A DNA stretch of 64,000 bases from Planctomycetaceae bacterium. Its GTDB lineage: Bacteria > Planctomycetota > Phycisphaerae > UBA1845 > UTPLA1. Positions within the stretch are counted from its first letter, which is position 1. Each line of letters begins with the position of its first letter. The notes below the pieces were generated by a model. The model saw nothing but the letters and a program-made list of their open reading frames with translations, searched no databases and was not told the DNA's origin. The position numbers and the translations under genes were made by a program. The DNA is taken from NCBI GenBank assembly GCA_006969385.1, contig CP030884.1:2356001-2420000 (forward strand), written 5' to 3'. Positions 17,383-57,510 of the stretch are shown in pieces.

Positions 17383-17991
17383 GTGAATCATTCTGATGAG
17401 CAAGCCCTTGTGGAAGCTGCAAATGCGGGTGATCGCGATGCCCTAACGGCGTTATTAAATGAACTCGCCAAGCCACTGCGGGTTCATGTGGCTGGCAACA
17501 TCGATGCGAAATGGCAGGCGTTATTGGATGTTGATGATGTGCTGCAAATTACCTATCTGGACGCATTTAGCGGCATTAATAAGGCAAGCCTAGATACCCC
17601 TAAGGATATGTTGAATTGGTTATACCGATTAGCAGACAACAATATCCGAGACGCCATTCGGGGTTTGAGTGCGGCAAAGCGACCGAATCCGAGCAATCGG
17701 GTGACGGCTGACGATCATGATTCGGCGAGTCTTGATCTGCTGGAATCTCTCGGTGTTCATTCAGCGACCCCTAGTCGAGTGGCAGCGGCGAAAGAGGCGA
17801 AAACGCTCCTACGTAATGCGCTGGCTGATCTGGCGCCTGACCATCGCGAAGTCATCACGCGTTTCGATCTCAAACACGAAGACCCCAAAGAGATTGCTAA
17901 TAGCCTGAACCGATCGGTCGGTGCTATTTATATGCTCCGCGCACGGGCGCTGGAACGTTTGAGCGAAGTCCTGCCAAAATACTCCTCCTAA
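17383..17991 (+). CDS. ECF-type RNA polymerase sigma factor
   Basis: 202 residues with the two sigma domains of extracytoplasmic-function factors. Region 2 covers about residues 15-90 (DVLQITYLDAF is the -10 recognition helix area). Region 4 covers about residues 135-195 (LADLAPDHREVITRFDLKHE, then helix-turn-helix EIANSLNRSVGAIYMLRARALERL). The GTG at 17383 has GGGGGTG upstream. The Ser/Thr kinase gene follows after 67 bases, an arrangement frequent in planctomycetes, where no classical anti-sigma factor is adjacent and the kinase is thought to control activity. A promoter-like motif overlapping its stop codon is repeated at 31999, suggesting which genes it may drive. Confidence 0.92.
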   Translation: MNHSDEQALVEAANAGDRDALTALLNELAKPLRVHVAGNIDAKWQALLDVDDVLQITYLDAFSGINKASLDTPKDMLNWLYRLADNNIRDAIRGLSAAKRPNPSNRVTADDHDSASLDLLESLGVHSATPSRVAAAKEAKTLLRNALADLAPDHREVITRFDLKHEDPKEIANSLNRSVGAIYMLRARALERLSEVLPKYSS

Positions 17992-18058: not shown

Positions 18059-19804
18059 ATGAGCGATCCAGGTGCCAATCCGACTGAGTCCAGCGGTGAT
18101 GTTGATAAACGCCTCATCGACGCGGCCCGCGCCCAAGCTGATGGGCGCGGTAGTGGAGACGACGAGACTAAGGCCGCTGGCGATCAGACAGAGACCATAA
18201 GCACCAACCCGTTGGCGATCGACAACGACCTCACGTTGGACGCCCGCGCCGTCGCCGGAGATGCATTCCCCTCTATTGCTGGCTACCTCTTCCAACGCAA
18301 GATCTCCGGCGGCGGTCAAGGCCTCGTGTTCGAAGCGATTCAGGAATCCACCAAACGTCGCGTTGCTGTGAAAGTCATCCGGGGCGGCGCCATGTCCCAC
18401 CCTGAAAACCGTAAACGTCTGCAACGCGGCGTGCGCGTGCTGGGTCAATTGCATCATCCATCCATCGTCGGAATCGTCGACAGCGGTATCGCCGATGGCT
18501 GCCTGTATTACGTGATGGAATACGTCGCAGGTGTCACGTTAGACGATTATGTAGCCCGCATGCGCTCCACGTCGGTTGGCTGGAATGCGGAAGGCAGCGA
18601 CGGTGATTCGGGGTCACGCAGTAGGCGCTCGCGGCAAGAAGCCAAGGCCGAGCGGCTCACGATGCACCGACTGTTGACGATCTTCGCCAAACTCTGCGAA
18701 GCCCTTGATGTGGCACATGTTAGAGGCGTGCTGCATCGCGATATCAAGCCCGCCAACGTGCTCGTGGATCAGCGCGGCGAGCCACACATACTCGACTTCG
18801 ATTTGGCCAAAATCCTCGACGGCGGTTTCATGCCGGACGAAGACTTTTCGGCCATGACGGTATCGGGTGAGTTTCTGGGGTCACTTCGTTGGGCCAGTCC
18901 GGAACAAGTGGAACGCAAACCGTCGGGTATTGATTTACGCACCGATGTTTATTCGCTAGGCGTGGTGCTGTATGAGATGCTCACGGGTCAATTTCCGTAT
19001 CCGGTGGTCGGCACGCGGCGTGAGATTGAAGACAACATTTTGCACGCGACACCCAAGAAACCGCACACGATTCGCAAGGCGGTTGATGATGAACTCGAGA
19101 CGATCGTATTAAAGTGTTTGGCAAAGGAGCCAGCACGCCGTTACCGCAGCGCCGGTGATTTGGCCGTGGATATCCGCAGCTACCTGAATGGTGATCCGAT
19201 CTCGGCCAAGCGCGACAGCGGTTGGTACATGCTCAAGAAACTGGCGGTACGTCATAAGGCCGCGACGACCGTGGCGTTGTCGGTCGTCGTGATTCTGATG
19301 AGTTCGTTGACGTATGTCTATTTTGCGTGGCGCTCAGCCCAAGATGTGATCAAAGAACGAGATAAGGCGGTTGAACTCGCGAGTTTCCATCAGACGGATG
19401 CTGAAAATATGGCTTTCATCGCATTGGAGGCTCGTCGTGAAACGCGTTTCCTATGGTTCTTGTCCGAATATAGGGCCGGAAATATGGACCGGGCGCTGCA
19501 AGCGGCCAGCGAGTTCAAGGTCAAGGGTCCAAGGGCAGAGGCCATTACGACAGGATTCCTCCTGGGTGAAATCGACGTCAATACACTCGAACAGGTTATG
19601 CCGGTTGACGATGCGCTCTACAAGGAGTTTGCTCTGGCCGAGTGGCACAGTAACGAAAAACAATGGAAAGAGGCCGCAGAACTGTATAATGCGTGTCGTA
19701 GTCTGAACGGGCCGGAGTGGCTCAAACGAGAAGCAGCATCAAGGCGAGCTGAACTCGCTGGCAAAACCGAAAACGCCCATCCTGGCGACGAGCAGGGGGC
19801 GTGA
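18059..19804 (+). CDS. Membrane-anchored Ser/Thr protein kinase with DFD in place of DFG
   Basis: 581 residues. A disordered charged N-terminus precedes a Hanks-type kinase domain (about 75-375): glycine loop [12 protein letters not shown], catalytic Lys-105 in VAVKVI, catalytic loop [11 protein letters not shown] (Asp-228), SPEQ, and [19 protein letters not shown]. The metal-binding motif reads DFD (246-248) instead of DFG; Asp-246 is kept, so activity is still likely. A charged insertion of about 35 residues (170-200) interrupts the N-lobe/C-lobe junction. One membrane segment (about 402-424) is followed by a helical extracytoplasmic tail of about 155 residues that could sense a signal. The stop overlaps the next start, so it is co-translated with the prepilin-like gene. 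Confidence 0.92.
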
Positions 19805-20595
19805 TTGTTATGCAACTCACAACTCCTAAACAAGATGGTCCTAAAGCTGCTAGCCGCGCATTTACGCTCATCGAGTTGCTCGTCGTTATTGCGATCATCA
19901 GCCTGCTCATCGCTATTCTGTTGCCGTCGCTCGCGGCTGCCCGGCGCATTGCAGATCGCACCTCATGCCAGACCAACTTAAAAAACTTGGCCGAAGCGTG
20001 GCACATGTATCTCGATGATAACGATGACCGCTTTCTGCAAAGTCCGAATCCGACGGACAACGTGCAAGTAAACTACGGCGGCAAGCAAGGAGCGATTCCG
20101 CCGTTTCGCAAACGCAAGCCGCTCAATCGGTATCTAAATCTCGATCTCGAACTCGATGATGCACCCGTGTATTTCTGCAAGCAGGATGAAGGTGCCTTCA
20201 CCGTAAGCGGTAAGCACTACGACTACTTTGGAACGAGCTATTCACCCAACCTGATGATGATCGGCACCATGCCGCTGCAGATTACCGGCAGTGATCCGTG
20301 CGCCGATGTTCTGCAGCAAGCGAATGAGAAGTTGCCGGGCCTCAAGCGCACGCAGTGTGCCGACCCGGGGCGACTGGTACTGATCGGCGACTACGGCTGG
20401 GTCTATGACTGGAACGTCAACGATCCGATCAATGTCGCGTGGCGGCATGGCGAAGACTGGAAACACAACGTGGCATTCCTCGATGGGCATGTTGCGTTTC
20501 AGAAGTTTGATAAGGGAAGGCATACGAGTTCTGAGTATCTCGTGATGCCTCTTAGAAACCTGCAAACGGCCTGCGCAGAATGCCAGGCTCAATAG
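19801..20595 (+). CDS. Prepilin-like protein with N-terminal methylation motif and C-terminal H-X9-DG motif
   Basis: 264 residues from GTG 19801 (overlapping the kinase stop by four bases) or ATG 19810. The prepilin signal is [20 protein letters not shown], with Ala before the cleaved Phe and Glu at +5. The globular part ends in [20 protein letters not shown], the signature ending of the large planctomycete prepilin-like family (DUF1559-related). It is probably processed by prepilin peptidase and displayed at the envelope. Its last 70 codons occur again, decayed, at 25511-25730. Being in one unit with the kinase and the giant exoprotein, it may help export or anchor the latter, which is inference. 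Confidence 0.88.
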
Positions 20596-20617
20596 ATATG
20601 CTGGGGGTTGAGTTGAT

Positions 20618-23600
20618 ATGGTAATTGGAAAAAAGCGCTGCTTGCTGATCACGTTGATTTGTGCGGGATTGCTATCCGCGGCGAATACCCATGCCGATGG
20701 CGTGACGCAGGCAGTCAACTGGTCGAAGCGCTGGCGCGATACGACAGAATTCGCTCTCAATCCGAGTAAGACCGAAGCACTGGACGCGAATGGTGACCGC
20801 TGGAGCATCAGTACGGGAGCATTTTTAGGGAGTTTCGAGTGGGGATCTTCGTTCCGCCCATTCACCTTCTCTCCCGATGGCTCAGAGGTAGCAAGAGGTG
20901 AGGGTACTACCCTGCGAATTTATTCATATCCAGCGGGTACGCTACTAAAAGAAATCCTTAATAGCGCATTTGTGTCTCGCATCGAGTATGCGCCGGACGG
21001 AAATCGACTCTTGGTTACATATCAGGGGTCTAATAATGACGAGGTAATGTATAACCGGAACGGGTCGCCATTGATTGACTTTACAATATCGCAGAGCCTT
21101 GGCCCTATTGCGTTCTCACCCGATGGATCGGAGTACGCGAGTATTTCTTCATCCGGTGTTCTAAGTCGATACAATTCCGCGAATGGATCTATCATCGAAT
21201 CAGTTATTACTAATGTGCCGGGCGTGCTCTATTTTGACGATATCGTGTATCTACAAAACGGAGACGTTTTGGCCGTGGGACTGTTGGAATATTATGATGA
21301 ATTCGTAAATGACTATCTCGTTTTCCCCTATCTCTATTATTTTGATATTGGATCGTTTTCATCCTTGGCTTGGGTTAATGACTGTGCGCAGGTGTTAGCT
21401 TTAGGTCCAAGTAATATCTCAGTGAATCCAAGTGAGGATGGATTCTTAATTAGTGCTTATGCCGAATTACAGCTCTTTGAGGGGCCTGCTTGTTCAGATA
21501 GTAGTGGACTCTTTTACAATATTAATGAGCCCCTGTGGGGCTTGTGGTTGTCTGATTCGCAAATTGCAACCAATTTAGGCATCTACGACACAAACGAAAC
21601 GCTTGTTCAGACCTTTCCCGGGCCCATCTTTCTTGAGGCAGTGTCAGGTCTGACCGGTCTGATTAGGAATAATAGCCTTTACTCAACATCAGGTGCGATA
21701 CTTGACTTATCGACAGGCAATGAGATTGCCGCCGTTACTTTGCAAAGCTTCGGCGGCATTGCATTGAACGAGCCGGCCACGTTGTATGCGAATTCTACAT
21801 CGAACGGTGATGTTGAGATCCGGCGCACCAGCGATGGCGGACTTGAACAGACCTTGTCGGGCCATTCACAATCTGTCAGCGCTTTACGCTTTCTTGGCGA
21901 TCAACAGAGATTGCTCAGCGGCAGTTTTGACGATTCTGTACGACTATGGGATTTAGAGACAGGTGACGATATTGTCTTTCCACCAATGCACAGTGCATAC
22001 ATCCGCAACGTGGATGTTAGTCAAGACGGCTTACGGGCGGTTTCGGCCTCACAAGATGGCGTCATCCATGTCTGGGATATCAGTGACCTCGAGAACATTC
22101 AGGTCATTCAAACACTTAATGTTCCGAGTGTCGATCAAGTGTTGATGACGCCGGATGGAGCATCGGTGATCACGGAAGATTTTTCAGCCGGCATTTCCCG
22201 ATGGGATGTGGCAACCGGCTTGCCAGCGTACACGGTACTTGCAAGTGCCGGAGCTCAAAATCTTGATCTGAGCCCAGACGGCAGCATTTTTCTGGCAGAG
22301 GAACGGGATAGGCTCTCTATTTGGCGTACTGCTGATGGCCAGTTGGTGAATGAGATTTTGGAATCGGTGGGTGGCGACGGTACCGATGCGTTTTTCGCGG
22401 GCGATGGTTCGATCATTCGGCGCTCGCAACGGGCTCTATCGAGCCTCGATTTTCCACATGTATTTGTAAACCCGTTGGCCACCCCTGGCGGCGATGGCTG
22501 CACCTGGGCGACAGCGTTTGATTCCGTGGAAGCGGCGCTGAGTTATCTTTCCGCTAACAACAAGGTAGCGGATCTTTGGCTCGCCTCCGGCACCTATATG
22601 CCGGTGACATTGACGGATCCAGAGGATCCGCGGTCGGCGACATATGTGATTCCCGATGGCGTACGATTGGTTGGTGGATTCGCCGGTACTGAGGCGCGCC
22701 TGTCGGAGCGCGATCCTGTCGCGAACCCAACACTATTGACGCAGAACCCGATGTCGAGCCGAACGCTTCTATCGCCGGTGGGTAAGGCAACGCTGGATGG
22801 TCTTACGATTGTACGCGGCTCGAATCCACCGTTGGCGACGGAAGAGTTTCGGCTGGTGAACGATGGCCGACTCACGTTCCGCAATTGCCGCATTCAGACG
22901 GATGCTGATGGATTCATCGGCCTTGATCCGGATCCGAGCAATTTGGCGGATATCATGCTGGAGTCGACACCGATCGAGATCGTGGTGGAGGCAGACGCTT
23001 TTTGTGGAAAAGCCGGTGAACTACTGGAACTGCGTACGCCCGATGTGCTTTGTGGTACCGCGTTTAATCCTGATTGTTTGTCAGGTTTGATCGATGCCGC
23101 CGGTGCGCCGGTGTTCTCCGGTACGCCGGAGGTGCGCTGGATCATAAACAAGTTGGAGGTGAAGAGCGGAACAACGTTGAACCTGACTAACCGTCCCAAT
23201 TTTGACTTCAGAGATGTCGGGGACACGATTCCGGAGTGTCTCTATGTGCGCGAGTTGATCATCGAATCGGGAGCGCGCATCAACACAGGTCTCTTGACCG
23301 TGTACTACGAGACGCTGACGGATGCAGGTGATGTCTCGAACGTCCCGCTGCTGGGCTTTTCATTGATTAATATCGACATGGAATGCCAGGAAGAATTTGA
23401 CGCAAGAGTGTCTCCGCGATTGCGTGATGACAATGACACACAACCGGTGGCCCCGCCCTTCTTGGAAGGATCGATTCAGCGCACCAATGGAGCGCTAGCG
23501 GGTGATCCGAGTCGCTTCTACATGGAGATGAAAACCCAGGATGATGCCAACGGCTCGGATTCAGCATCGACGATATCTGCCAAGGCGACCTTCGCTCGTG

Positions 23601-25447
23601 CCGGCGAAGACGAGATTCTGGTGGCGTTTGAGTACACGTTCTGCGGCAATCCGACGGATGAGTTGGTGGTGTATCTGAGTGATGCCCCGGAAGTCGGCCA
23701 GAACCTGGTAGAGATCGCCCGGATCACGCCTCCGACGAGCGGTCCGGGCTCTATCAGTAGCGATCAGTTCGCGACATTCTCGGGGTTGTTCCCGCGGGGA
23801 AGCTTGAACTTCCGACGCGGTACGTATGTGGAACTGGAGTTGGTGGGCCAGGATGCCTGCGTGTTGATTGATGAGTGGGATCCGCTGGTTTGCTTTTCGC
23901 AGGAATGCGGTGATTTTAGCGGTGACAACGCGACGACAAATATAGATCTCTTGTATGGCCTTTCTGCCCTCGGCGAAACCGTGCTTGGCGTACCGGAAAG
24001 TATAATCGGGGCTAACTCGTGTCTGGATAAAGTCAATCGAGATAATTATGTCGACATCAGTGATGTTGTGATTGCCGACAGCTTGTATGACTACGGGGTG
24101 GTGGGCCTTTGCGACGGCGCGGGTTCGAGCAGCTTCGCGGGGATGACCAGTGGAGTGGTTACTCCCGAAGATCAGTTGATCATCGCGGGCAAGTCCAATG
24201 TCGGAGGTGATCTTGGCGATCGTCTCTACCCGGTGGATGAGGCATTGTCTATATCAGGCCTCGGTATCGCACCACCGGTAGCGGCGGGCGGAATGACATA
24301 TGGCGTTCGCGGTCACGGTCGGCTGGTGAAAGATGGCAGCGGTGCGTTGTACCAGTTGCACAGTGTGGCGGGCTTGGTGCGTTTGAGCGATGGCCAGGTG
24401 ATGGTGGCGCCGGGTGATCAGTCTTTCAATGGCAATACGGTACGACTGGGGATGCCATCCACAGGTGATGGCCTTCCGATCTTCGATGCTGCGTTCGATC
24501 CCAATGATCCGACGACAGTGTACGTGGTACCGGCACGGGTGATTCCCGGTGGCGATGAAGATGCTGCTTACTACGTGGCAGCACAACTGAGCCTAGCGGA
24601 GAACGCGGGAGTCGTGACCTGGACCATCCAAGAGACCTACGGCTTCGACCCGCAGACCGATCCCAACAACAACACGCAGCCACCCCAGTTCTCACAGACC
24701 AATGTGCAGTACCTGCGTGAGATTGAGACGGACAGTGACGGCAATGTGTACGTGACCTGCGCCCGGGCAGATAACCAGAATGACTGGTTATTGATCTACG
24801 ATGCAGTTGGTGGCACTGCCAGCGAACAGCGGGTGCGGTTGAGTGACTTGCCGGCACCGCTGCGCGGTCCGGCGGCGCTGCACGTGAGCGACGATGGTAG
24901 CAAGTTGTACTTGGGTACCTCTCTGGATGAAGGTGATCCGGCAACGACCAAAGTACAGGAATTCACTCTGGGCGGTATGTCTGGTGCGATCACGGTGACG
25001 CCCAGCCGTGTGATCGAGATCGGCAACATGCGCTTTGTGACGTCGATCGCAGAAGACACGAACGGAACTGAGTACGTTGTCGGCTACACCGCACCGGTCC
25101 AGGATCCGTTCTCGATCTTCTTCTTCGAGTCGGACAGCCTTTTCACCACGCCCACGTTAGCCACGCTCCCGCCAACCGGTACCACCACCACGGCGACAAC
25201 GATCACGGGTGCGGATGCAGCGTTGCCGCTGTCGGCGGTGTTCAGCAGCAGTAATACATCAAGCTGTCTGCCGGGTGATATCGATAACTCCGGAGCCGTA
25301 AACAACGATGACATCGCTTCCTTCGTGGATGTGCTGCTCAACGGCACCGTCGATCCCGACCAGGCCTGTCGGGCGGATGTCAATCAGGATGGCACCAGCG
25401 ACGGTCGGGATGTGGGCATGCTGGTTGATCTGATCACTGGGCAATAA
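20618..25447 (+). CDS. Giant secreted WD40 / beta-helix / dockerin-like exoprotein
   Basis: 1609 residues. A signal peptide (KRCLLITLICAGLLSAANTH) precedes a WD40-type propeller over about residues 60-600 (FSPDGSEVARGEG, SVSALRFLGDQQRLLSGSFD, SVRLWDLETG, IHVWDISDL). Then comes a beta-helix region opened by GGDGCTWATAFDSVEAALSY and typical of polymorphic-outer-membrane-like proteins, then a long module shared almost unchanged with the exoprotein at 28.2-32.0 kb. The C-terminus has two EF-hands (GDIDNSGAVNNDDIASF and ADVNQDGTSDGRDVGMLVDL), dockerin-like. Codons in the first half are AT-richer than in flanking chromosome. It follows the prepilin-like gene by 22 bases. Surface or extracellular role likely; target unknown. 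Confidence 0.85.
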   Translation: MVIGKKRCLLITLICAGLLSAANTHADGVTQAVNWSKRWRDTTEFALNPSKTEALDANGDRWSISTGAFLGSFEWGSSFRPFTFSPDGSEVARGEGTTLRIYSYPAGTLLKEILNSAFVSRIEYAPDGNRLLVTYQGSNNDEVMYNRNGSPLIDFTISQSLGPIAFSPDGSEYASISSSGVLSRYNSANGSIIESVITNVPGVLYFDDIVYLQNGDVLAVGLLEYYDEFVNDYLVFPYLYYFDIGSFSSLAWVNDCAQVLALGPSNISVNPSEDGFLISAYAELQLFEGPACSDSSGLFYNINEPLWGLWLSDSQIATNLGIYDTNETLVQTFPGPIFLEAVSGLTGLIRNNSLYSTSGAILDLSTGNEIAAVTLQSFGGIALNEPATLYANSTSNGDVEIRRTSDGGLEQTLSGHSQSVSALRFLGDQQRLLSGSFDDSVRLWDLETGDDIVFPPMHSAYIRNVDVSQDGLRAVSASQDGVIHVWDISDLENIQVIQTLNVPSVDQVLMTPDGASVITEDFSAGISRWDVATGLPAYTVLASAGAQNLDLSPDGSIFLAEERDRLSIWRTADGQLVNEILESVGGDGTDAFFAGDGSIIRRSQRALSSLDFPHVFVNPLATPGGDGCTWATAFDSVEAALSYLSANNKVADLWLASGTYMPVTLTDPEDPRSATYVIPDGVRLVGGFAGTEARLSERDPVANPTLLTQNPMSSRTLLSPVGKATLDGLTIVRGSNPPLATEEFRLVNDGRLTFRNCRIQTDADGFIGLDPDPSNLADIMLESTPIEIVVEADAFCGKAGELLELRTPDVLCGTAFNPDCLSGLIDAAGAPVFSGTPEVRWIINKLEVKSGTTLNLTNRPNFDFRDVGDTIPECLYVRELIIESGARINTGLLTVYYETLTDAGDVSNVPLLGFSLINIDMECQEEFDARVSPRLRDDNDTQPVAPPFLEGSIQRTNGALAGDPSRFYMEMKTQDDANGSDSASTISAKATFARAGEDEILVAFEYTFCGNPTDELVVYLSDAPEVGQNLVEIARITPPTSGPGSISSDQFATFSGLFPRGSLNFRRGTYVELELVGQDACVLIDEWDPLVCFSQECGDFSGDNATTNIDLLYGLSALGETVLGVPESIIGANSCLDKVNRDNYVDISDVVIADSLYDYGVVGLCDGAGSSSFAGMTSGVVTPEDQLIIAGKSNVGGDLGDRLYPVDEALSISGLGIAPPVAAGGMTYGVRGHGRLVKDGSGALYQLHSVAGLVRLSDGQVMVAPGDQSFNGNTVRLGMPSTGDGLPIFDAAFDPNDPTTVYVVPARVIPGGDEDAAYYVAAQLSLAENAGVVTWTIQETYGFDPQTDPNNNTQPPQFSQTNVQYLREIETDSDGNVYVTCARADNQNDWLLIYDAVGGTASEQRVRLSDLPAPLRGPAALHVSDDGSKLYLGTSLDEGDPATTKVQEFTLGGMSGAITVTPSRVIEIGNMRFVTSIAEDTNGTEYVVGYTAPVQDPFSIFFFESDSLFTTPTLATLPPTGTTTTATTITGADAALPLSAVFSSSNTSSCLPGDIDNSGAVNNDDIASFVDVLLNGTVDPDQACRADVNQDGTSDGRDVGMLVDLITGQ
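23578..25447 (+). repeat. Long direct repeat, copy 1 (exoprotein C-terminal module)
   Basis: About 1.87 kb nearly matching 30136-31990. Long stretches are almost identical, for example 24600-24780 against 31144-31325. More distant protein-level similarity starts about 700 bases earlier in both genes. The high identity at silent positions suggests recent duplication or gene conversion. Confidence 0.85.
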
Positions 25448-25510
25448 GGAAGTTGCAAGTGTAAAGTTCCCTCAGCCGGAAGGCTTGTATTGCACTGATC
25501 CAAGGTGATC

Positions 25511-25730
25511 GGTACTGATCGGCGACTATGGCTGGGTCTATGACTGGAACGTCAACGATCCGATCAATGTTGCCTGGCGTCACGGCGAAGATTGGAAACA
25601 CAACGTGGCATTCCTTGATGGGCATGTCGCGTATCAGAAGTTCGAGAAGGGAATGCACACGAGTTCTGAGAATCTCGTGATGCACTTGGGAAACCTGCAA
25701 ACGGCCTGTGCAGAATGCCAGGCTCAATAA
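25511..25730 (+). pseudogene. Remnant of a second prepilin-like gene (last 72 codons)
   Basis: An open frame from about 25512 to the TAA ending at 25730 repeats the end of the prepilin-like protein at 20384-20595, with a few changes (AYQKFEKGMHTSSENL against [16 protein letters not shown]). The prepilin signal and most of the body are missing and no start is present. After it, 25738-25775 resembles the gap and first codons of the 1609-residue exoprotein gene (ggggattgaattg then aattgataataagcgcc). The duplication therefore covered the prepilin end and the next gene's start. Confidence 0.85.
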
Positions 25731-25794
25731 ACTGACAGGGGATTGAATTGGCAATTGATAATAAGCGCCCCGTGGTTTTTTATCCTAGAGCTCA

Positions 25795-25890
25795 ATGACG
25801 CAAGTCTTGAAGTTGCACGGTGAAGTTTCCGTGATTTTCTCGTCGGTGTTCGGAACCGCGATACTCGCCGCGGGCGGAGCCAAAGTATGA
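25795..25890 (+). CDS. Possible 31-residue leader peptide overlapping the next gene
   Basis: ATG at 25795, stop TGA at 25888-25890 overlapping the ATG at 25887 (ATGA). The product ends FSSVFGTAILAAGGAKV, short and hydrophobic. The exact overlap would allow translational coupling to the exoprotein gene. No clear ribosome site is seen, and the region is partly derived from a duplication, so chance is possible. Confidence 0.3.
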   Translation: MTQVLKLHGEVSVIFSSVFGTAILAAGGAKV

Positions 25891-28211
25891 ACCGAATCGC
25901 ATCAACGATTGTAATAGGACTCATTGTAGCAGCGGCTGCCGATCAGGCCCGGGCTGCGCTCATCTGGACCGAGCGCTTCGATATTCATCCCTTCACGACA
26001 AACCGTTGGATTCGCCGTGACCAGGGGTGTGTCGGTAACGGGCAATGGGATGGCTTCTTCGTCCGTAACGACGTTGCCGATCAGTGTTCGGGCGTTACTC
26101 CCGCGCAATTTGTTCGATGGCGCGGTGATCTCCGGAAGTGCATGATTTACAACAATGGTGCGTTCGGTGACATACCTACAGCCCAATACGTCAATCTAAA
26201 TCTATCTTTTCGATATAACCTGAATCAGGGTGACCTACTTGGCTGTGACGTGCTTGTTGGAGCTAACTGGATCAACATCGTTCAAGTTTCTGCCTTCGGG
26301 GGATGGCAAACATTCTCTGGGCCGGTGCCCGACGATGTAATATCGATTCGATTCAAGCTGATTCCAGGGAGTGTCGGTGGCATCACGCCCAATGTCCGGC
26401 TCGACTGCATTGAAATCACCGGCGATTTGGACACTGACTACGACAACGTTCCGGATAGCCAAGACGGCTGCCCGAATGACGGTAGCAAGACTTCGCCAGG
26501 AACGTGCGGCTGCGGTGTGCCAGATTCCAATTTCCGAACGTGGTATCGCGACCAGGATAATGATGGTGCAGGAGACCCGAACCAAACTCAGAATTCTTGC
26601 ACCCAACCGTCCGGTTATGTCGCCAATGCCGACGACGGCTGCCCGAATGATGGGAATAAGACGTCGCCTGGGACGTGTGGTTGCGGTGTGCCAGATTCCA
26701 ATTTCCGAACGTGGTATCGCGACCAGGATGATGATGGTGCAGGAGATCCGATGCAATCTCAGAATTCTTGCACCCAACCTTCTGGTTATGTTGCCAATGC
26801 CAACGACGGTTGCCCGAATGATGGGAATAAGACATCGCCCGGGACGTGCGGTTGCGGAGTACCCGATTCCAATTTTCGCACATGGTTTCTCGACCAAGAC
26901 GGCGATGGTGCAGGAGACCCGAATCAAACTCAGGATTCATGCACCCAACCGTCCGGTTATGTCGCCAATGCCAACGATGGCTGTCCGAATGATGGGAACA
27001 AGACGTCGCCCGGGACGTGTGGTTGCGGCGTGTCAGATTCCAATTTTCGCACATGGTTTCTCGACCAAGATGGTGATGGTGCAGGGGACCCGAACCAAAC
27101 TCAGGATTCATGCACCCAACCGTCCGGCTATGTCGCCAATGCCAACGATGGCTGCCCGAACGATGGGAATAAGGTATCGCCTGGGACGTGCGGTTGCGGA
27201 GTACCCGATTCCGATTTTCGCACGTGGTTTCTCGACCAAGATGGTGATGGTGCAGGAGACCCGAATCAAACTCAGGATTCTTGCACCCAACCATCCGGGT
27301 ATGTTGGCAATTCCGATGATGGCTGTCCGAACGATGCGAATCAGACATCGCCCGGGGCGTGCGGTTGTACTACCCCCCCCGGTGTTATGAGTGCAAGACT
27401 TTACGTAAATGCGAATGCCTCAGGACTGGAAACAGGTGATAACTGGGCCAATGCGTTTCGGAATCTTCAGACCGCGTTGTCGGTCGCACGGGCTAACCCG
27501 GGAGTCGTCGACGAAATCTGGGTAGCCCAAGGCGTATACGATACTTCGTGCGCGGAATTCGAATTAGCCGATGGTGTGAATATCTACGGCGGATTCGACG
27601 GAACTGAGTCAGTCCTGTCCGAAAGATTGCCTGCGGTAAACCGAACGGTTCTATCCGCTATGTTGAATCATCCAGATCCGCTAAACGCATATGTCATTGG
27701 TACTATGCAATTCTCGGGCTCAGCCACCCTCGACGGAATGATTATTACAGGAAGGGTTAGGTCGAGTCTTATTATGGAATCTGGATCACTCACGATTCAG
27801 AATTGTTCTTTTGAATTTTCTGGGTCGCTCAGGCAAACAGGTGGAAATCTGATTCTGAGAAATTGTCTTTTCCTATGGAATCGATCCGGTTTTTTTGGGG
27901 CCGTGAGTTGTTTGGGCGGAACTGCGTCCATTACGAACTGCACATTCCATGCGAATTATGGTTGGGGGGGAGGGAGCCTCGTAGCCGGTGGAATCGAGAT
28001 TAGCGACAGTTCGGTATCGGTAAAGAACTCGATCTTTTGGGGGAATTTCGCGGAGTTTGGTGGACCGGAGCAGATTGCTGTTTTTGGCGGGCCTCAAGGG
28101 GCCGGCGAACTAACGATCTCGCATTCCGTGGTACAAAACGGGCAGCTTGATATTCGGGGAGATGGGATTGTGAACTGGGGCCGGGTAATCTTGCTGTCAA
28201 TCCATTATTGA
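25887..28211 (+). CDS. N-terminal part of a frameshifted giant exoprotein (TSP3-like repeats, beta-helix)
   Basis: 774 residues before a frameshift. The ATG at 25887 has GGAG upstream. A signal peptide (MNRIASTIVIGLIVAAAADQ) precedes a beta-sandwich domain to about residue 190. Five identical-length Ca-binding repeats and a partial sixth follow (each with DGCPNDGNKTSPGTCGCG and DQDGDGAGDPN), similar to thrombospondin type 3 repeats. From about residue 505 a beta-helix begins (LYVNANASGLETGDNWANAF, GVNIYGGFDGTES). The frame ends in NWGRVILLSIHY, but the +2 frame continues as GPGNLAVNPLLTRQGRLRAG, the normal continuation of such proteins. It is therefore the front of one gene of about 2034 codons ending at 31990. 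Confidence 0.82.
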   Translation: MNRIASTIVIGLIVAAAADQARAALIWTERFDIHPFTTNRWIRRDQGCVGNGQWDGFFVRNDVADQCSGVTPAQFVRWRGDLRKCMIYNNGAFGDIPTAQYVNLNLSFRYNLNQGDLLGCDVLVGANWINIVQVSAFGGWQTFSGPVPDDVISIRFKLIPGSVGGITPNVRLDCIEITGDLDTDYDNVPDSQDGCPNDGSKTSPGTCGCGVPDSNFRTWYRDQDNDGAGDPNQTQNSCTQPSGYVANADDGCPNDGNKTSPGTCGCGVPDSNFRTWYRDQDDDGAGDPMQSQNSCTQPSGYVANANDGCPNDGNKTSPGTCGCGVPDSNFRTWFLDQDGDGAGDPNQTQDSCTQPSGYVANANDGCPNDGNKTSPGTCGCGVSDSNFRTWFLDQDGDGAGDPNQTQDSCTQPSGYVANANDGCPNDGNKVSPGTCGCGVPDSDFRTWFLDQDGDGAGDPNQTQDSCTQPSGYVGNSDDGCPNDANQTSPGACGCTTPPGVMSARLYVNANASGLETGDNWANAFRNLQTALSVARANPGVVDEIWVAQGVYDTSCAEFELADGVNIYGGFDGTESVLSERLPAVNRTVLSAMLNHPDPLNAYVIGTMQFSGSATLDGMIITGRVRSSLIMESGSLTIQNCSFEFSGSLRQTGGNLILRNCLFLWNRSGFFGAVSCLGGTASITNCTFHANYGWGGGSLVAGGIEISDSSVSVKNSIFWGNFAEFGGPEQIAVFGGPQGAGELTISHSVVQNGQLDIRGDGIVNWGRVILLSIHY
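26463..27367 (+). repeat. Five 171-bp tandem repeats plus a partial sixth
   Basis: Units begin at 26463, 26634, 26805, 26976, 27147 and 27318, each 171 bases (57 codons), so length changes keep the frame. Each encodes DGCPND, a CGCG segment, an FRTW segment, a D-rich calcium loop and SCTQPSGYV. Differences between units are mostly silent. Confidence 0.93.
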
Positions 28212-31200
28212 CGCGACAGGGGCGGCTTCGCGCAGGATCACCATGCATTGATGCAGGCGGTGATACGGGAATTCCTGCCTCAGACATTGATGGTGAGCCG
28301 CGACCATCGGGTGGCGGCGTCGATATTGGATATGACGAGTTTGTTGATAGTGACGGAGATGACCTCCCCGACTGGTTCGAGGCTGCGTACCCAACCGCGG
28401 CCGCGCCGGAGTCAGACCCCGATATGGACGGTGCGACCTCTCTGGAAGAGTATGAGACATATGGCACTACGCCGGATGGCGCTTTGGTTTATGTAGATGT
28501 TAACAACAATTCCGGTCCATGGGATGGCACATTCTCCAGTCCGTTTCAGACATTGCAGGACGGGATCGATGCGGCCGCTGACGGCGATACGATCCTTGTC
28601 CTCCCGGGTATTTATAGTAATCCACGAGACCGAGACCTCAATTTTGTTGGAAAGGCCGTCCTGCTTATATCAGCCGGTGGTCCCACCGCCACGATTTTGG
28701 ATGGGCTTGGATCAGAATCGAACATATTCGCTGGCGGGCTCTTGTCAACGATTGCCGGATTTGAGTTTCGACGCTTCTCAGTGGCTGCGGCGAGTGATCT
28801 ACCGTTGTTGGCGAACTGCGACTTCAATGATAATCAAGGGGTTATTAGTACATCGCGGAATATAGTTCGCTTATCGAATATCGAATTTTTAGACAATCCA
28901 TTTAATTTAGCGTTAGAGGGTTGTAGCGTCGAATTACAGAATACCACCCAGTTACTCAACGGCGTAGCACGTTTGGAAAACGTCTTTATTTCAGGTGATG
29001 GTCAGCTTGAAATAATGGCTGGTGCGCGGGTCGTGATAGGTATCGAGCCTGGCTTCATTGAGATCTTTCCTTTACCGCAGGGTCCGGTTTCAATGGCTAC
29101 GACTCTCACCGGTAACGGAGTAATTGAGATTACGCCAGTTGGAACCTTGGAAATACTTGAGGGATCGCTAGTCGACCTTAGTGGTACCACGCCTACAGGG
29201 GAGTGCTCGATTACTGACTCTGAAGCCTGGGGTACGATTATCGTAAACGGCACCCTTCTGGGGCTGGGTGGGACGATTCAGCAATCGCAGATTGACGTAC
29301 TTCTTGGATCAATTGAAAACGAAAGCATTATCGAGAATAACGATATTCGGCTAATAGAAACAGCGGCAGGATATGGTGGTGAGTTTTTTGTCTCCGGAGA
29401 GACGACAGTACGTTGCAACGTGATCCGCTCGGAAGGTGATCGGTATCTAGACTTGGACCCGGATCCGACGGCGGATCCGAGGCCGTTTATCGGTGACAAT
29501 CAGTTGTTCGTGACTATCAGGCAGGGCGTGACGGGCGACCAGGGCGAGTTGCTGGAGTTGCGGACGGAGGACTCTGATCCGGCTGTCGGTGGCGGGTTGT
29601 CGGGCGCGCATCAACTCGCCGGTAGTGCGGGTTACGACGATACATGGGTGTTGGAAGAGTTGGAAGTCTTGGCGGATGCCAAGGTGAACCTGACCAATCG
29701 TCCGGGTTTTGTATTCCAGGATCGGCAGATCGCTGCGTTCGAAGCGTTGTACGTTAAGCAACTGAAGTTGCATCCGGGGGCGGTGCTGAATACGGGTTTG
29801 CAGCGGATGTACTACCAGTCGGTGGTGGACGAGAACGATAGCCCCTTGGGTAGTCCGGATGTGGATGGCTTCTTCCCCAATGGGGCGCGGCTGGTTGATA
29901 CGCCGCTGCTGGGCTTCTCGCTGAAGGTGATCTCGATGGAGGATGACACGGAGTTCGCGGTGAGGGTGCGTCCGCGACTACGTGATCCGAACGATGTGCA
30001 ACCACCCTCATGTGAGTTTGGAGGCCCCTGCTTGCAAGGCTCAATCGAACGGATTGAGGATCCGTCGGATGCGAACAATGGCGTGATGGAGATGAAGACG
30101 CGCGCCGATGGTCAGGGAAGTGCATCGAGTGTGTCGGCCCATGGCGCGTTCGCCCGCGCCGGCGAAGACGAGATCCTGGTGGCGTTTGAGTACACGTTCT
30201 GTGGCAATCCAACGGATGAGTTGGTGGTGTACTTGAGCGATGCCCCGGAGGTGGGTCAGAACCTGGTGGAGATTGCGCGGATCACGCCTCCGACAAGTGG
30301 CCCGGGCTCGATCGGTAGCGATCAGTTCGCGACATTCTCGGGGTTGTTCCCCCGGGGAAGCTTGAACTTCCGCCGTGGGACGTATGTGGAACTGGAGTTG
30401 GTGGGCCAGGATGCCTGTGTGCTGATCGATGAGTGGGATCCGCTGGCCTGTGGTTCACCCGAGTGCGGTGACTACGACCTGAGCTACTTCATCTCCAATG
30501 TGGATGTGCTGTATGGGCTAACGGCCTTGGGCAGTGAAGTGGGACAGAACAACTCGTGCCTTGATAAGGTGAACCGTGATAACTATGTGGATGTGAATGA
30601 CGTACTGCTGTCGGATGCGTTGTACGGCTACGGCGTGTCGCAGGGCTTGTGCGTGGGCGGCGCGGGTTCGAGCAGCTTTGCAGCGGTAACCAATGGTGTT
30701 AGTGCTCCCGCCGACCAGTTGATCATCGCGGGCAAGCCCAACGCGGGCGGTGATCTGGAGGATCAACTGTATCCGGTGGATGCGGCAACGTCAGATTCAG
30801 GCCGGAACATTGCACCACCGGTAGCGGCGGGTGATCCGTTCTACGGCCAGCGTGGTCATGGAAGATTGGTGAAGGATGGCAATGGCACCCTTTATCAGTT
30901 ACACAGCGTGGCGGGTCTGGTGCGTTTGAGCGATGGCCAGGTGATGGTGGCCCCGGGCGAGCAGTCTTTCAATGGCAATACGGTGCGACTGGGGATGCCG
31001 CCTACGGGTAGTGGCCTTCCGCTCTTCGATGCAGCGTTCGATCCCAATGATCCGACGACGGTGTATGTGGTGCCGGCGCGCATTATCCCTGCGAGTGGTG
31101 AGAGTGATGCTTACTACGTGGCCGCGCAATTGAGCCTGACGGAAAACGCGGGAGTCGTTACCTGGACCATCCAAGAGACCTACGGCTTCGACCCGCAGAC

Positions 31201-31990
31201 CGATCCCAACAACAACACGCAGCCACCCCAGTTCTCACAGACCAATGTGCAGTACCTGCGTGAGATTGAGACAGACAGTGATGGCAATGTGTACGTGACC
31301 TGCGCCCGGGCAGATAACCAGAACGACTGGTTATTAATCTACAAAGCAGCCATGGGTACGGCCAGCGAGCAGCGAGTGCGATTGAGTGACCTGCCGGTAC
31401 CGCTGCGCGGCCCGGCGGCGCTGCATGTGAGCGACGACGGCAGCAAGTTGTACTTGGGTACGTCACTCGATGAAGGCGACCCCGCAACGACGACGGTGCA
31501 GGAATTTACTCTGGGCGGTATGTCTGGTGCGATCACGGTGACGCCCAGCCGTGTGATCGAGATCGGCAACATGCGTTTTGCGACGGCGATTGCAGAAGAC
31601 ACGAACGGAACTGCGTACGTTGTCGGTTATACCGCACCGGTGCAGGATCCGTTCTCGATCTTCTTCTTCGACTCGGATGGCCTGTTCACGACGCCGACGT
31701 TAGCGACACTACCGCCAGTCGGTACCACCACCACGGCAACAACGATCACGGGCGCGGATGCGGCGTTACCACTGTCGGCGGTGTTCAGCAGCAGTAACAC
31801 ACCCAGTTGCATGCCGGGTGATATGGATAGTTCCGGAGCCGTAGATACCGGTGACATCGCTTCCTTCGTGGACGTGCTGCTCAACGGCACCGTCGATCCC
31901 GACCAGGCCTGTCGGGCCGATGTCAATCAGGATGGCACCAGTGATGGTCGGGATGTGGGAACCTTGGTGGACCTGATCACCGCTCCCTAG
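28208..31990 (+). CDS. C-terminal part of the frameshifted giant exoprotein (beta-helix, shared module, dockerin-like)
   Basis: 1260 codons from a TTG at 28208, but the frame is open back to about 28178 and joins the previous gene if one G is restored in the run at 28177-28180. It therefore probably has no start of its own. It begins with GSPCIDAGGDTG, the typical end of a beta-helix repeat domain. A DSDGDDLPDWFE loop, a second beta-helix (SPFQTLQDGIDAAADGDTIL) and the module shared with the 1609-residue protein follow. Two EF-hands close it (GDMDSSGAVDTGDIASF and ADVNQDGTSDGRDVGTLVDL). Whether the break is real, phase-variable or a sequencing error cannot be told here. Confidence 0.8.
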   Translation: MTRQGRLRAGSPCIDAGGDTGIPASDIDGEPRPSGGGVDIGYDEFVDSDGDDLPDWFEAAYPTAAAPESDPDMDGATSLEEYETYGTTPDGALVYVDVNNNSGPWDGTFSSPFQTLQDGIDAAADGDTILVLPGIYSNPRDRDLNFVGKAVLLISAGGPTATILDGLGSESNIFAGGLLSTIAGFEFRRFSVAAASDLPLLANCDFNDNQGVISTSRNIVRLSNIEFLDNPFNLALEGCSVELQNTTQLLNGVARLENVFISGDGQLEIMAGARVVIGIEPGFIEIFPLPQGPVSMATTLTGNGVIEITPVGTLEILEGSLVDLSGTTPTGECSITDSEAWGTIIVNGTLLGLGGTIQQSQIDVLLGSIENESIIENNDIRLIETAAGYGGEFFVSGETTVRCNVIRSEGDRYLDLDPDPTADPRPFIGDNQLFVTIRQGVTGDQGELLELRTEDSDPAVGGGLSGAHQLAGSAGYDDTWVLEELEVLADAKVNLTNRPGFVFQDRQIAAFEALYVKQLKLHPGAVLNTGLQRMYYQSVVDENDSPLGSPDVDGFFPNGARLVDTPLLGFSLKVISMEDDTEFAVRVRPRLRDPNDVQPPSCEFGGPCLQGSIERIEDPSDANNGVMEMKTRADGQGSASSVSAHGAFARAGEDEILVAFEYTFCGNPTDELVVYLSDAPEVGQNLVEIARITPPTSGPGSIGSDQFATFSGLFPRGSLNFRRGTYVELELVGQDACVLIDEWDPLACGSPECGDYDLSYFISNVDVLYGLTALGSEVGQNNSCLDKVNRDNYVDVNDVLLSDALYGYGVSQGLCVGGAGSSSFAAVTNGVSAPADQLIIAGKPNAGGDLEDQLYPVDAATSDSGRNIAPPVAAGDPFYGQRGHGRLVKDGNGTLYQLHSVAGLVRLSDGQVMVAPGEQSFNGNTVRLGMPPTGSGLPLFDAAFDPNDPTTVYVVPARIIPASGESDAYYVAAQLSLTENAGVVTWTIQETYGFDPQTDPNNNTQPPQFSQTNVQYLREIETDSDGNVYVTCARADNQNDWLLIYKAAMGTASEQRVRLSDLPVPLRGPAALHVSDDGSKLYLGTSLDEGDPATTTVQEFTLGGMSGAITVTPSRVIEIGNMRFATAIAEDTNGTAYVVGYTAPVQDPFSIFFFDSDGLFTTPTLATLPPVGTTTTATTITGADAALPLSAVFSSSNTPSCMPGDMDSSGAVDTGDIASFVDVLLNGTVDPDQACRADVNQDGTSDGRDVGTLVDLITAP
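30136..31990 (+). repeat. Long direct repeat, copy 2 (exoprotein C-terminal module)
   Basis: Partner of 23578-25447, in the same orientation about 6.5 kb away. The centre-to-centre distance equals one prepilin-exoprotein duplication unit. Confidence 0.85.
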
Positions 31991-32046: not shown

Positions 32047-32091
32047 TCAGTGCCGCCAATGGGGGCGGTACCAGCAAATTGGGAGATGGTG

Positions 32092-32994
32092 ATGAATAAG
32101 TACTTCAACAGCTTCAAGACTTTTCTGGCAACCTTCGCTTGCGCTACATTCTTCGTCGCTGCCAACCCCGCGTTGGCAGAGGAGCAGATTTTCACGACTA
32201 TTCCGAGCCCGCAAGTCGCCGAACCTGACCACATCTCCACGTTGATCGATGTTGATCGACGGATCACACAGATGGAGCAAACCGCTGAGCTGGCGCGCCA
32301 GATGATCGAGAAAGGGATGACAGACAAGGCCGCCGCAGCCTTCGACTTCGAGATGATCAAGGAGGAGTATCAAGAGTTATTTGAGCGCTTGACGGAGTTG
32401 GACGAATTGCTGCCTTCGCAAAATACCTATGAGGCGATCGTGGGGCCGAGTGCTGAGTCCTTTACGGCAATGGTCGCTCTCAACTTCCAGCGGCTCGATG
32501 CGGTGGCGATGGAAATCAAGCGATTTGAGCGTGTGATCGAGCAGCGAAAACCGCAACGCACTCCGTCAGATAGTATGCTCTGGGACCGCTATTTCGAATT
32601 CACGGCCGACGTGGATACGGCAAAAGACACAACTAGCGTGTTCACGTACCAAACGTTTGAACTGGTTGCCATCCTGGGTGTTTTCGAAGATGCGGTTGAG
32701 AACGGAAACCGAGTGTATTTGAACATCGACTATGTGGTGCAAGCGCTGACCAGTCTTGAAGTCGCACTCGATGACGAAATCGCCGCAAATAGTGAACTGC
32801 TTGGTCGAGGTAAGCGATTGACCTACGAGGGAGACCGGGCGGGAATCGAGCGTCTGGTAAATGCCACGAAACGAGCCATGAATGAACTGCAGGATGCGCT
32901 GGCCACGAATCGTCACAACGCCGGGAAAGTTGATGCACTCTTCGCTCGCCTGGAGATCTTGGAAATGAGCGACTGGGCGAGATCGCAGGAATAA
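32092..32994 (+). CDS. Secreted, mostly helical hypothetical protein
   Basis: 300 residues from the ATG at 32092, with GGGAG six bases upstream; ATG 32086 is in frame. A signal peptide (FLATFACATFFVAANPALA) ends at a typical Ala-X-Ala site. The mature part is acidic and almost wholly alpha-helical, with heptad-like runs (ITQMEQTAELARQMIEKGM, EEYQELFERLTELDELL, NATKRAMNELQDAL), and no cysteines were noted. No known family is recognised. It has its own copy of the ECF-type motif and a terminator, so it is a single-gene unit that may share control with the kinase operon. Confidence 0.7.
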   Translation: MNKYFNSFKTFLATFACATFFVAANPALAEEQIFTTIPSPQVAEPDHISTLIDVDRRITQMEQTAELARQMIEKGMTDKAAAAFDFEMIKEEYQELFERLTELDELLPSQNTYEAIVGPSAESFTAMVALNFQRLDAVAMEIKRFERVIEQRKPQRTPSDSMLWDRYFEFTADVDTAKDTTSVFTYQTFELVAILGVFEDAVENGNRVYLNIDYVVQALTSLEVALDDEIAANSELLGRGKRLTYEGDRAGIERLVNATKRAMNELQDALATNRHNAGKVDALFARLEILEMSDWARSQE

Positions 32995-33060: not shown

Positions 33061-33436
33061 TATTGTCGAATGATATTCCTCCACGGTTTAAACCGGTTAC
33101 TATTATTGGCCAGCATAGCTTTGGCCGAGTATCCACCGAATGCGGAATTCGAGAGCAGCGTATGCCAGACGCGAGTAGTGTCTGGTCACCTAAAAAGCAG
33201 TTTTGGATCGGCACTATGCGCAATATTGGATTCGAGTGATTAATGTCACGGGAGAGTGCTCAGCAATCATGGCTGAGGCTTACTCGTTACACCTGCGTTT
33301 TCGGCACTGCCAATGCGGATACGGAGTTGCAAATGTCCTTAAAGTTGTTACCAAAACGGAAGAATTGAAAGAAACCGATGTTGCGATTCAGTCAAACAAA
33401 TTGATGTAACGTGTTTTCTAGAAATGAATTATAAAC
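33061..33436. other. AT-rich spacer between terminator and tRNA-Gly
   Basis: About 375 bases with short open frames on both strands but no ribosome site, known RNA or integrase-like sequence. If the block is an integrated element, this is where its tRNA-proximal end would lie. Confidence 0.35.
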
Positions 33437-33508
33437 AGCGGGCGACGCGACTCGAACGCGCAACATTCAGCTTGGAAGGCTGATGCTCTACCATTGAGCT
33501 ACGCCCGC
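33437..33508 (-). tRNA. tRNA-Gly(TCC)
   Basis: A 72-base cloverleaf on the minus strand: acceptor GCGGGCG/CGCCCGC with discriminator T, D arm GCTC-AATGGTA-GAGC, anticodon stem TCAGC/GCTGA with loop CTTCCAA (anticodon TCC, reading GGA), and T arm with TTCGAGT. No CCA is encoded. It follows rmuC on the same strand. Its 3' half is repeated at 16541-16587. Confidence 0.95.
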
Positions 33509-47616: not shown

Positions 47617-47967
47617 TACCTGTGATATCGAGCGAATCGAGGTCCGATGTTGGTTTGAACTCTTGGTAAGAACCTGTGGTGGGGAACGATTGGCATGTCG
47701 CGATTCCAAATTCCATCGCAGATTGAAACGTCTTTTGTGGGCTGATTATGGGGGCAGGGCGACGATGGCTGCGTCGCTGCTGATATTTATGGACCTCGCT
47801 GTAAGTCCTTCACTCTTATTGGCGAATACTTTTGCTGCGATGTAAAGGGGCAGGGTGCGGTCACCGATCATGGTACTGACCGGCGGTACATCCGATGGGG
47901 TGGCCCATCGACGACCGTCGGCATAAACGCAATCAAGATTAGGGACTGGTCTTAGGAGGCAATTACG
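47617..47967. other. Promoter region between divergent membrane-protein and pilin genes
   Basis: 351 bases without a supported gene. TAGGAGG lies nine bases before the pilin ATG. A sequence like a sigma-54 site (ttgg...ttgc at 47819-47835) has one base too many between its GG and GC. Confidence 0.4.
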
Positions 47968-48387: not shown

Positions 48388-48425
48388 AGCGGCTCAATCC
48401 ATCTGACCAGTCTTGAATTGCTCAT

Positions 48426-55425: not shown

Positions 55426-57510
55426 ATGGATCATCGACACGTGATTCAATCAGGTGGGGTATTGGTAACTTGCCTCATGGTGCTACTCGGCGCTGGCCGA
55501 TCGGTGCGCGCACAGGATGCGAATGCGGAACTGCCGCTAACGGCGGAAAGCGTGTTGGCAGCGTTGAAGCAAGCACGCGAAGTAGTGGATGAAGCCGAGG
55601 TGCGCGCCGAAGTTGAAGCCGTATCGACATCAACGAAGACGCAAACTTCGTCAGCTACTCGTTCAGCAAATACTCAATCAAATAAACAGCCCGACCCTAA
55701 CACATCGAACGACCGCACAACAACGGCGTCGGCCATCGAAACCGAAGCGCCTAGGGATCCGCTAAGCGAGCAGTATGTCCGCGTCGGCGTGGATGAACGC
55801 GTCACGATGCACGTATCGGGGCTGCCGTTGGCCGATGCGGTGCGCATGTTGTCGGAGCCGACGCAACGAAACATCATCCTGGGGCCCAACGTGTCGGGTA
55901 CGGTTGGTGCCACGCTTTACGACGTCACGTTCGAAGAAGCGCTCAACGCGATGCTGATCTCAAACGGATTGGGTTATCGCGAGCAGGGCAACTTCATCTT
56001 CATTCACACGGCCGAAGAGATCGAGCGGATGCGCAAGAGTTCCAAGCGGATGGAAACGCGCGTGTTTCGGTTGTCGTACGTCAAGGCGGCGATGGTCAAG
56101 GACATGATCGATCCGCTCAAGAGCGACGAGGGCGTCATCACGATTACCGACGAAGCCAAGGTCGGCCTTGGCGATGAATCCGGCCTTGTCGAGACCGGCG
56201 GCAACGATACGACGCAGCCAGAGATGTTGATGATCCGCGATTACGAAGGCGTGATCGAGGAGATGGCGCACGTGATTCGCGAGGTGGATCGGCGTCCGAA
56301 GCAGGTGCTGATCGAAGCGACGATTCTGCGGGCATCGCTTAACCAGTCGAATGCCTTAGGGATCGACTTCACGACAGTGGGTGGTATCGACTTCGCCGAA
56401 CTAAGTAGCACGAGCAACGCGGCCCAGGACATCACGACGGGGGCGACGCCGGCGGCCTTCTTGGATGACACCACGCTAACGGCACGCACCAACTTCAACA
56501 GCGCCGTGCCGAACGGCGGCTTTACATTCGGTATTCTCAAAGATCAGGTGGGCGTGTTCATTCGCGCGCTGGAGCAGGTAACCGACACGAATGTGATCGC
56601 GAATCCCAAGGTCTTGGCGTTGAACAAACAGCCGGGGCAGATGCTCGTCGGTAATCGCGATGGCTACATCACGACCACGATCACCGAGACGACGGCCGTG
56701 CAGAACGTCGAGTTTCTTGAAACGGGTACGTTGCTCACGTTCCGACCGTTCATCGGTGAAGACGGCTACGTGCGCATGGAAATTCACCCGAAGGATTCGA
56801 CCGGCGGTGTGACGGCGGCGAATTTACCGTTTGAATCGACGACCGAAGTAACAACCAACATCATGGTCAAGGACGGTCACACGATTCTGATCGGCGGCTT
56901 GTTCCGCGAAGTCTCGACGGCGTCGCGCTCGCAAGTGCCGGGGTTGGGCGATCTCGATTTCCTCGGGCCGCTGTTCCGCTCGACCAACGACAACACGATT
57001 CGCGAAGAAGTCATCGTGCTGCTTACGGTTCGTATCGTGAAAGAGCCGAACGACTATGCCGCCGGCGAGGCGCTATACGAAGATGTGGAACGCATCCGCA
57101 TGGGTGCCCGCAAGGGGATGCAAATCCTCGGACGCGAACGCTTGTCGCAATACCACTATCAAAAAGCGTTGGAATACTTCGACGTCGGCGATATGAGCAA
57201 GGCGCAATTCTACGCCCGCTTGGCGCTGAACGGTCATCCACAACACACCCACGCACGCAAGCTGCTCGAGCAAATCGAAGGCAAACGCGAGTGGGAATCC
57301 GAATCGTCATCGATTCGATCGGTGGTGCGCGATTTGATTCGAGCAGACCGCGGCGACGCGGCGCGCGCCGAACACGCACGACCGGGACCGCCGTTCGATT
57401 TACCCGAGTTGGGAGTATCCGAAGGGTTAGACGAAAAACGCGAGACGCCGCCCACGCGACTGCAGACGACCGAGCCGCGCATCGAAACGATGCGGGAGGT
57501 GTCGCCATGA
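55426..57510 (+). CDS. pilQ: Outer-membrane secretin PilQ/GspD
   Basis: 694 residues, with GGAGAG upstream of ATG 55426. A signal peptide (VLVTCLMVLLGAGRSVRA) and a disordered Thr/Ser/Asn linker precede an STN/N1-type domain (ADAVRMLSEPTQRNIILGPN). Further N-domains (FRLSYVKAAMVKDMIDPLKS) and the secretin core follow: VLIEATILRASLNQSNALGI, NVIANPKVLALNKQPGQMLV and VPGLGDLDFLGPLFRSTNDN. The last 150 residues add TPR-like helices (YQKALEYFDVGDMSKAQFYA), an extension not found in standard PilQ. It overlaps the TPR lipoprotein gene by four bases. Confidence 0.94.
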   Translation: MDHRHVIQSGGVLVTCLMVLLGAGRSVRAQDANAELPLTAESVLAALKQAREVVDEAEVRAEVEAVSTSTKTQTSSATRSANTQSNKQPDPNTSNDRTTTASAIETEAPRDPLSEQYVRVGVDERVTMHVSGLPLADAVRMLSEPTQRNIILGPNVSGTVGATLYDVTFEEALNAMLISNGLGYREQGNFIFIHTAEEIERMRKSSKRMETRVFRLSYVKAAMVKDMIDPLKSDEGVITITDEAKVGLGDESGLVETGGNDTTQPEMLMIRDYEGVIEEMAHVIREVDRRPKQVLIEATILRASLNQSNALGIDFTTVGGIDFAELSSTSNAAQDITTGATPAAFLDDTTLTARTNFNSAVPNGGFTFGILKDQVGVFIRALEQVTDTNVIANPKVLALNKQPGQMLVGNRDGYITTTITETTAVQNVEFLETGTLLTFRPFIGEDGYVRMEIHPKDSTGGVTAANLPFESTTEVTTNIMVKDGHTILIGGLFREVSTASRSQVPGLGDLDFLGPLFRSTNDNTIREEVIVLLTVRIVKEPNDYAAGEALYEDVERIRMGARKGMQILGRERLSQYHYQKALEYFDVGDMSKAQFYARLALNGHPQHTHARKLLEQIEGKREWESESSSIRSVVRDLIRADRGDAARAEHARPGPPFDLPELGVSEGLDEKRETPPTRLQTTEPRIETMREVSP

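Follow-up and report, generated by a model that had tools for sequence, protein, structure and literature searches.

Adjacent giant exoprotein genes of a planctomycete: a probable duplicated cassette with mosaic tails and exchangeable fronts

The window, i.e., the whole 64,000-nucleotide stretch of DNA analysed here, contains two neighbouring giant genes, A and B, which we read as parts of a duplicated giant-exoprotein cassette with recombined mosaic tails and swappable fronts. With its inferred history and function, this whole reading is given a probability of about 0.6. The part that concerns the tails is well supported: the sequence comparisons indicate that the tails of A and B are a mosaic produced by recombination between the copies, by gene conversion or an equivalent process. 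The genome from which the window comes is a single contig of 5.48 Mb, and its nearest named relatives in the collections are Phycisphaerae MAGs.

Repeat layout and structure of the two giant genes

The comparison of the window with itself revealed a direct repeat (23580-25437 and 30139-31980) with 82.9% DNA identity over 1868 columns, including 36 gaps. The repeat units sit towards the 3' ends of two large ORFs, A and B, and the tail copies that they encode are 87% identical as proteins. Protein homology of the tails starts upstream of the DNA block, at the motif PLLGFSL (position 23345 in A and 29903 in B). A long shared module had been reported in the preliminary description and was found again; its characterisation as a nearly identical 1.85-kb module was wrong, because of the overall identity given above and because some segments reach only 55-60%. 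In these least similar segments the silent sites are near saturation. In 25-codon windows the two tails vary between 0.56 and 0.99 in nucleotide identity, and the longest identical DNA runs are 113, 68, 44 and 41 bp. The self-comparison also gave another shared block, 5' of the first (20376-20638 and 25511-25768, 86%), absent from the preliminary description, which corresponds to the 3' end of the pseudopilin gene. A 47-bp direct repeat (85%) flanks the cassette region at 16541-16587 and 33433-33479.

The order of genes in the window is sigma factor, kinase, pseudopilin, A, pseudopilin remnant and B (Table 1). The intact pseudopilin carries the motif xxFxDGHV near its end and has a weak match to DUF1559. 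The remnant is an open stretch with no usable start codon; 15 of its 21 differences from the intact gene are at third codon positions, so it appears to have been under selection until the 5' part was lost. Judged from its sequence, this remnant marks a tandem duplication.

Table 1. Features of the giant-exoprotein locus, the candidate export gene and an independent tail pair (positions in the window unless a contig is named).
Feature	Position	Strand	Basis and remarks
ECF sigma factor gene, first of the cassette	17383..17991	+	TIGR02937 over cut-off, Sigma70_r4_2
Hanks-type Ser/Thr protein kinase gene	18059..19804	+	Pkinase E=1.4e-40
Pseudopilin gene	19801..20595	+	prepilin motif FTLIELL; N_methyl, TIGR02532 over cut-off
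Giant gene A	20618..25447	+	ORF and translation, 1609 aa; apparent signal peptide at start, by eye
A front, WD40 / beta-propeller	20690..22447	+	WD40 over cut-off; apparently replaced relative to the sister genome
A beta-helix-like region	22448..23344	+	93.6% identical to the L053 protein
Constant C-terminal module, copy A	23345..25444	+	shared DNA block 23580-25437
Headless pseudopilin remnant, 3' end only	25512..25730	+	21 differences to 20377-20595
Relic of A-type leader and first codons	25731..25768	+	alignment; 5' shared block ends here
Giant gene B, 5' part	25887..28211	+	774 aa; apparent signal peptide (by eye), 57-aa repeats, beta-helix
B tandem repeats, 171 bp (57 aa)	26448..27431	+	repeat detection in sequence
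Frame change between B parts, short G run	28175..28188	+	sequence and frames
Giant gene B, 3' part	28208..31990	+	1260-aa ORF; second beta-helix region and constant tail
Constant C-terminal module, copy B	29903..31987	+	shared DNA block 30139-31980
314-aa gene	32050..32994	+	also adjoins the giant gene in sister genome locus L053
Secretin gene, type II / type IV pilus machine	55426..57510	+	Secretin E=1.8e-36; candidate export partner
Giant genes of the G033 tail pair (L066, L067)	G033:C6 6255-14003 and 16704-21932		

The fronts of A and B had been described as unrelated, with WD40 in one and TSP3-like repeats in the other. They do differ, and the WD40 of A was confirmed by Pfam, but 'TSP3-like' rests on inspection by eye: the only Pfam match of the B repeats is a sub-threshold one to Excalibur on the 171-bp tandem repeat. 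The ORF at 25887-28211 joins the module-bearing ORF at 28208-31990 only via a frame change. Near the end of the former a beta-helix motif (WGPGN...SPCIDAG) runs from one frame into the other, and a choice_anch_Q match begins just downstream of the G run, in the other frame. The most likely reading is that these ORFs together form gene B (25887-31990), which would be frame-interrupted at the G run.

Comparison with the sister genome and alternative explanations

The reference for the three-way comparison was locus L053 of the sister genome G001 (JAUIHO010000032.1), which shares the kinase, the pseudopilin and the downstream 314-aa gene with the window locus, and has one giant gene only, with a WD40 front. 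In alignment columns 20-108 and 420-440 its tail resembles A, and in columns 205-280 and 300-360 it resembles B, while in columns 440-480 A equals B and L053 differs; as the window locus is present in three genomes only, two of them short-contig MAGs, there is a residual chance that the L053 tail is a chimeric assembly. The assembly of G001 was also checked for a collapsed B gene, and no close match to the B front was found anywhere in it. When the informative sites of A, B and L053 were shuffled, none of 500 shuffles equalled the observed values for the run count, the longest run or max-chi, and the same result (0/500) was obtained with silent informative sites only. Among the silent-comparable codons of A and B, the longest stretch of identical ones was 36, against 15.7 expected by shuffling (p=0.0002).

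Silent identity between A and B is 0.43-0.46 in the non-homogenised segments and 0.74-0.90 in the homogenised ones, and the baseline for orthologs of the two sister genomes is 0.76-0.79. As the homogenised segments are close to this baseline and the others far lower, the exchange took place around or after the species split, over a much older divergence. The earlier proposal that the tails are kept alike by gene conversion is thus supported by the clustered silent sites and the switching three-way patterns, with the qualification that homogenisation is patchy and incomplete. Even divergence along the module, named in the preliminary description as counter-evidence, was also looked for, and the contrary pattern, a strong clustering of silent similarity, was found.

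The fronts were compared at the same locus. Silent identity between A and L053 is 0.74 in codons 1-40, falls to 0.20-0.45 in codons 81-400 (chance 0.36), rises to 0.46-0.62 in codons 401-520, is again at chance level in codons 521-600 (0.29-0.30) and reaches 0.57-0.92 in codons 601-1080. Faster protein evolution would spare silent identity, so its fall to chance level points to replacement of the propeller region. The simplest reading is that one of the sister species had this region swapped for a divergent homolog. In the outgroup G002 the front at the same locus (L054) is a beta-helix that resembles that of B (43% across the compared part); for the A front no close match was found in G002 or G010. 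These sequences show that fronts change independently of the tail, partly at this locus between sister species.

Several other explanations of the tails and fronts were considered. It is very improbable that A and B result, without recombination, from a simple old duplication under uneven functional constraint. Certain stretches that are conserved in the tail are indeed also kept in distant paralogs, but clustering is as strong at silent sites as at all sites and the site patterns of A, B and L053 alternate among three topologies; on the clustered silent sites and switching patterns this explanation was rejected. A recent tandem duplication of the cassette, after which one copy took its front and internal patches from a distant paralog, is possible but doubtful. 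In that case the similar parts would be ancestral and the diverged patches would have been imported. The age of such a duplication would fit the identity of the pseudopilin to its remnant (86%), about that of sister-genome orthologs (87%), and the diverged columns 205-280 of A are of the type found in more distant paralogs (GD.SGDN..TN.D). However, among the tail-gene loci compared nothing above 55% protein identity turned up as a donor for the diverged tail segments of A, and the 113-bp identical run exceeds the ortholog baseline, which requires recent exchange regardless.

A less probable source of the exchanges than copies within the genome, though one with a real share of the likelihood, is other strains or species, through transfer and homologous replacement. 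The silent sites of the A front are as different from those of its sister ortholog as from unrelated sequence, and neither WD40 front has a second copy in G000 or G001; for the tails, on the other hand, donors are at hand next door in the same genome. As for gene B, its frame change at about 28175-28188 and the headless state of its own pseudopilin could mean that it is a decaying pseudogene, now merely a silent sequence store for A. This is quite unlikely, since the parts of B are otherwise open across 2000 codons and the protein identity of B to L053 and L054 is higher than silent identity in most segments, as with purifying selection. Moreover, the frame change may as well be a one-base sequencing error in the G run as a lesion, the two being equally likely.

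Distribution of the tail, its fronts and the cassette

Searches located the tail four times in the window's genome, behind four kinds of front: WD40, 57-aa repeats with a beta-helix, a PMP-type helix and BNR. Across all tail genes the fronts comprise WD40 propellers, 57-aa repeats with beta-helices, PMP-type beta-helices, BNR and sub-threshold DNRLRE-like domains. The idea of a constant C-terminal module with exchangeable fronts was therefore borne out, as the tail stands behind other fronts both in its own genome and in 17 others of the order. In total, 18 of the 114 genomes of the order, the window's own included, carry the tail; in a phylum-wide sample of 392 genomes it was found at E<=1e-30 only in the window's own genome. 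From these counts the family appears confined to this planctomycete order.

A second tail pair, an independent case in support of tail recombination, comes from the draft genome G033, which belongs to another family; here two giant genes on one contig have a mismatch-free common tail of about 3.6 kb (Table 1). The interval between 41 and 3639 bp ahead of the 3' end is free of mismatches, the borders are abrupt and the fronts differ. G045 is a related genome, in which the counterpart of one G033 gene is 83% identical across the front; apart from one 222-bp patch at 91%, its tail and that of the neighbouring gene have not been homogenised. A contig of G045 (G045:C48, L060) also holds a 1092-bp direct repeat (7968-9059 and 9624-10715, 99.5%) within the front of a giant gene, and this repeat indicates that fronts can also be enlarged by internal duplication.

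The cassette was tallied by hand for the 25 tail genes with usable flanks, truncated contigs being left out. A kinase and a pseudopilin, each of the kind seen in the window, adjoin 19 of them. The common order is kinase, pseudopilin and giant gene, often with an ECF sigma factor ahead, and at L026 it is giant gene, kinase and pseudopilin. The cassette is partial at four tail genes (B and single loci of G019, G033 and G059) and missing at two (G047 and G048). No description of a sigma-kinase-pseudopilin-exoprotein cassette in planctomycetes was found in the literature searched, from which subscription journals were mostly absent.

Possible history, known counterparts and export of the giant proteins

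The giants form one family in which the C-terminal 600-700 residues are constant and the front is exchangeable. Gene A would have arisen in the common ancestor with G001, when a pseudopilin-giant unit was duplicated beside an ancestral B-type gene, and would have acquired a WD40 front. G001 would later have lost the B front, so that its single gene would now combine an A front and a mixed tail with an end of the B type. The B type is considered ancestral because the front of L054 is B-like and that of A is without a close match in G002 or G010.

Precedents exist both for modules shared behind different fronts and for recombination among giant surface proteins (PMC5266723, PMC12863079). The gingipains RgpA and Kgp and the haemagglutinin HagA of Porphyromonas gingivalis, which evolve by domain rearrangement and by allelic exchange with gene conversion, are likewise large secreted proteins; they share adhesin modules, and their C-terminal domain stays constant while the fronts vary (PMC5266723). 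In these proteins the C-terminal domain is a type IX secretion signal and the fronts are proteases (PMC5266723), whereas the tail described here is annotated differently, is dockerin-like at its end and is tied to a kinase-pseudopilin cassette. Giant1-5 of Apilactobacillus kunkeei, with many intragenic recombination events, resemble A and B as adjacent giant exoprotein genes with beta-solenoid parts that evolve by recombination (PMC12863079). However, they belong to a Gram-positive bacterium and have a C-terminal SH3b-like domain for wall attachment, and the description consulted contains no sigma-kinase-pseudopilin cassette (PMC12863079). Many planctomycete giant genes are without known function, and the constant tail is a handle to find and group them. 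The sister genomes catch both front exchange and tail homogenisation, and the family offers a testable idea of how such giants are exported and diversified.

The signal-peptide-like starts, beta-rich repeats and dockerin-like pair suggest that the giants are secreted calcium-binding proteins. The front would bind a target outside the cell, and the tail, with beta-rich domains and a calcium-binding dockerin-like end, may serve export, folding or docking. Export would most likely proceed through a type II or type IV pilus machine together with the cassette pseudopilin, the sigma factor and kinase switching the cassette on in a manner like PknS-EcfK of Xanthomonas citri, where a secretion system is activated once the kinase has phosphorylated the sigma factor (PMC13147305). 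In both cases a Hanks-type kinase is paired with an ECF sigma factor; the target of PknS-EcfK is a type VI secretion system (PMC13147305), and here it would be a giant exoprotein with a pseudopilin. What is expected of type II substrates, an adjacent pseudopilin (19/25 loci) and an export machine in the genome, is present. Seven secretin and ten T2SSF matches were found in the genome; T2SSE and secretin are in the window and a T2SSF lies just past its end. Type IV pilus and type II secretion genes (pilin-like, PilM, secretin and T2SSE) occupy 47956-57510 and 4732-6495 of the window. A broader but rather improbable extension would make the cassettes an order-wide plug-in system, each giant protein being fed into a shared type II machine by its own pseudopilin and each cassette having its own sigma/kinase switch, with the tail as a recombination platform for the exchange of fronts. 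If so, recognition fronts would be exchanged while the export or docking part stays uniform.

The only name that Pfam or NCBIfam gives to the tail is for its dockerin-like end; matches of the tail profile to the PDB are confined to this dockerin-like / EF-hand part, and structure prediction from four tail sequences gave a mean pLDDT of 35. In the genome search both giants have a C-terminal type I dockerin, with Dockerin_1 over cut-off (26.9 and 27.1 bits), and in the single-protein scan the match is slightly below it. A dockerin match is present in 12 of 19 tails. A cellulosome-type system would have a cohesin partner in the same genome, and no PF00963 match was found in the genome at E<=0.001. 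A cohesin-dockerin 'planctosome', in which exoproteins dock on cohesins outside the cell, has been proposed in freshwater Planctomycetes (PMC6461901). The proteins described here are likewise planctomycete exoproteins with dockerin, and TSP3 repeats are a feature of the planctosome, but that model requires cohesins (PMC6461901), so it is unsupported in the window's genome, where none was found. Dockerin-like matches occur at 54 places genome-wide and end within 8 residues of the stop codon in 11 of the 16 checked. Another kind of end is seen in exoprotein-like ORFs of L025 (10996-12057 and 12297-14123) and L026 (83-1423), which finish with Cys-Gly-x-Gly...Pro-Met, a hydrophobic stretch and an Arg-rich end; by sequence it looks like a C-terminal sorting signal, distinct from the dockerin-like end.
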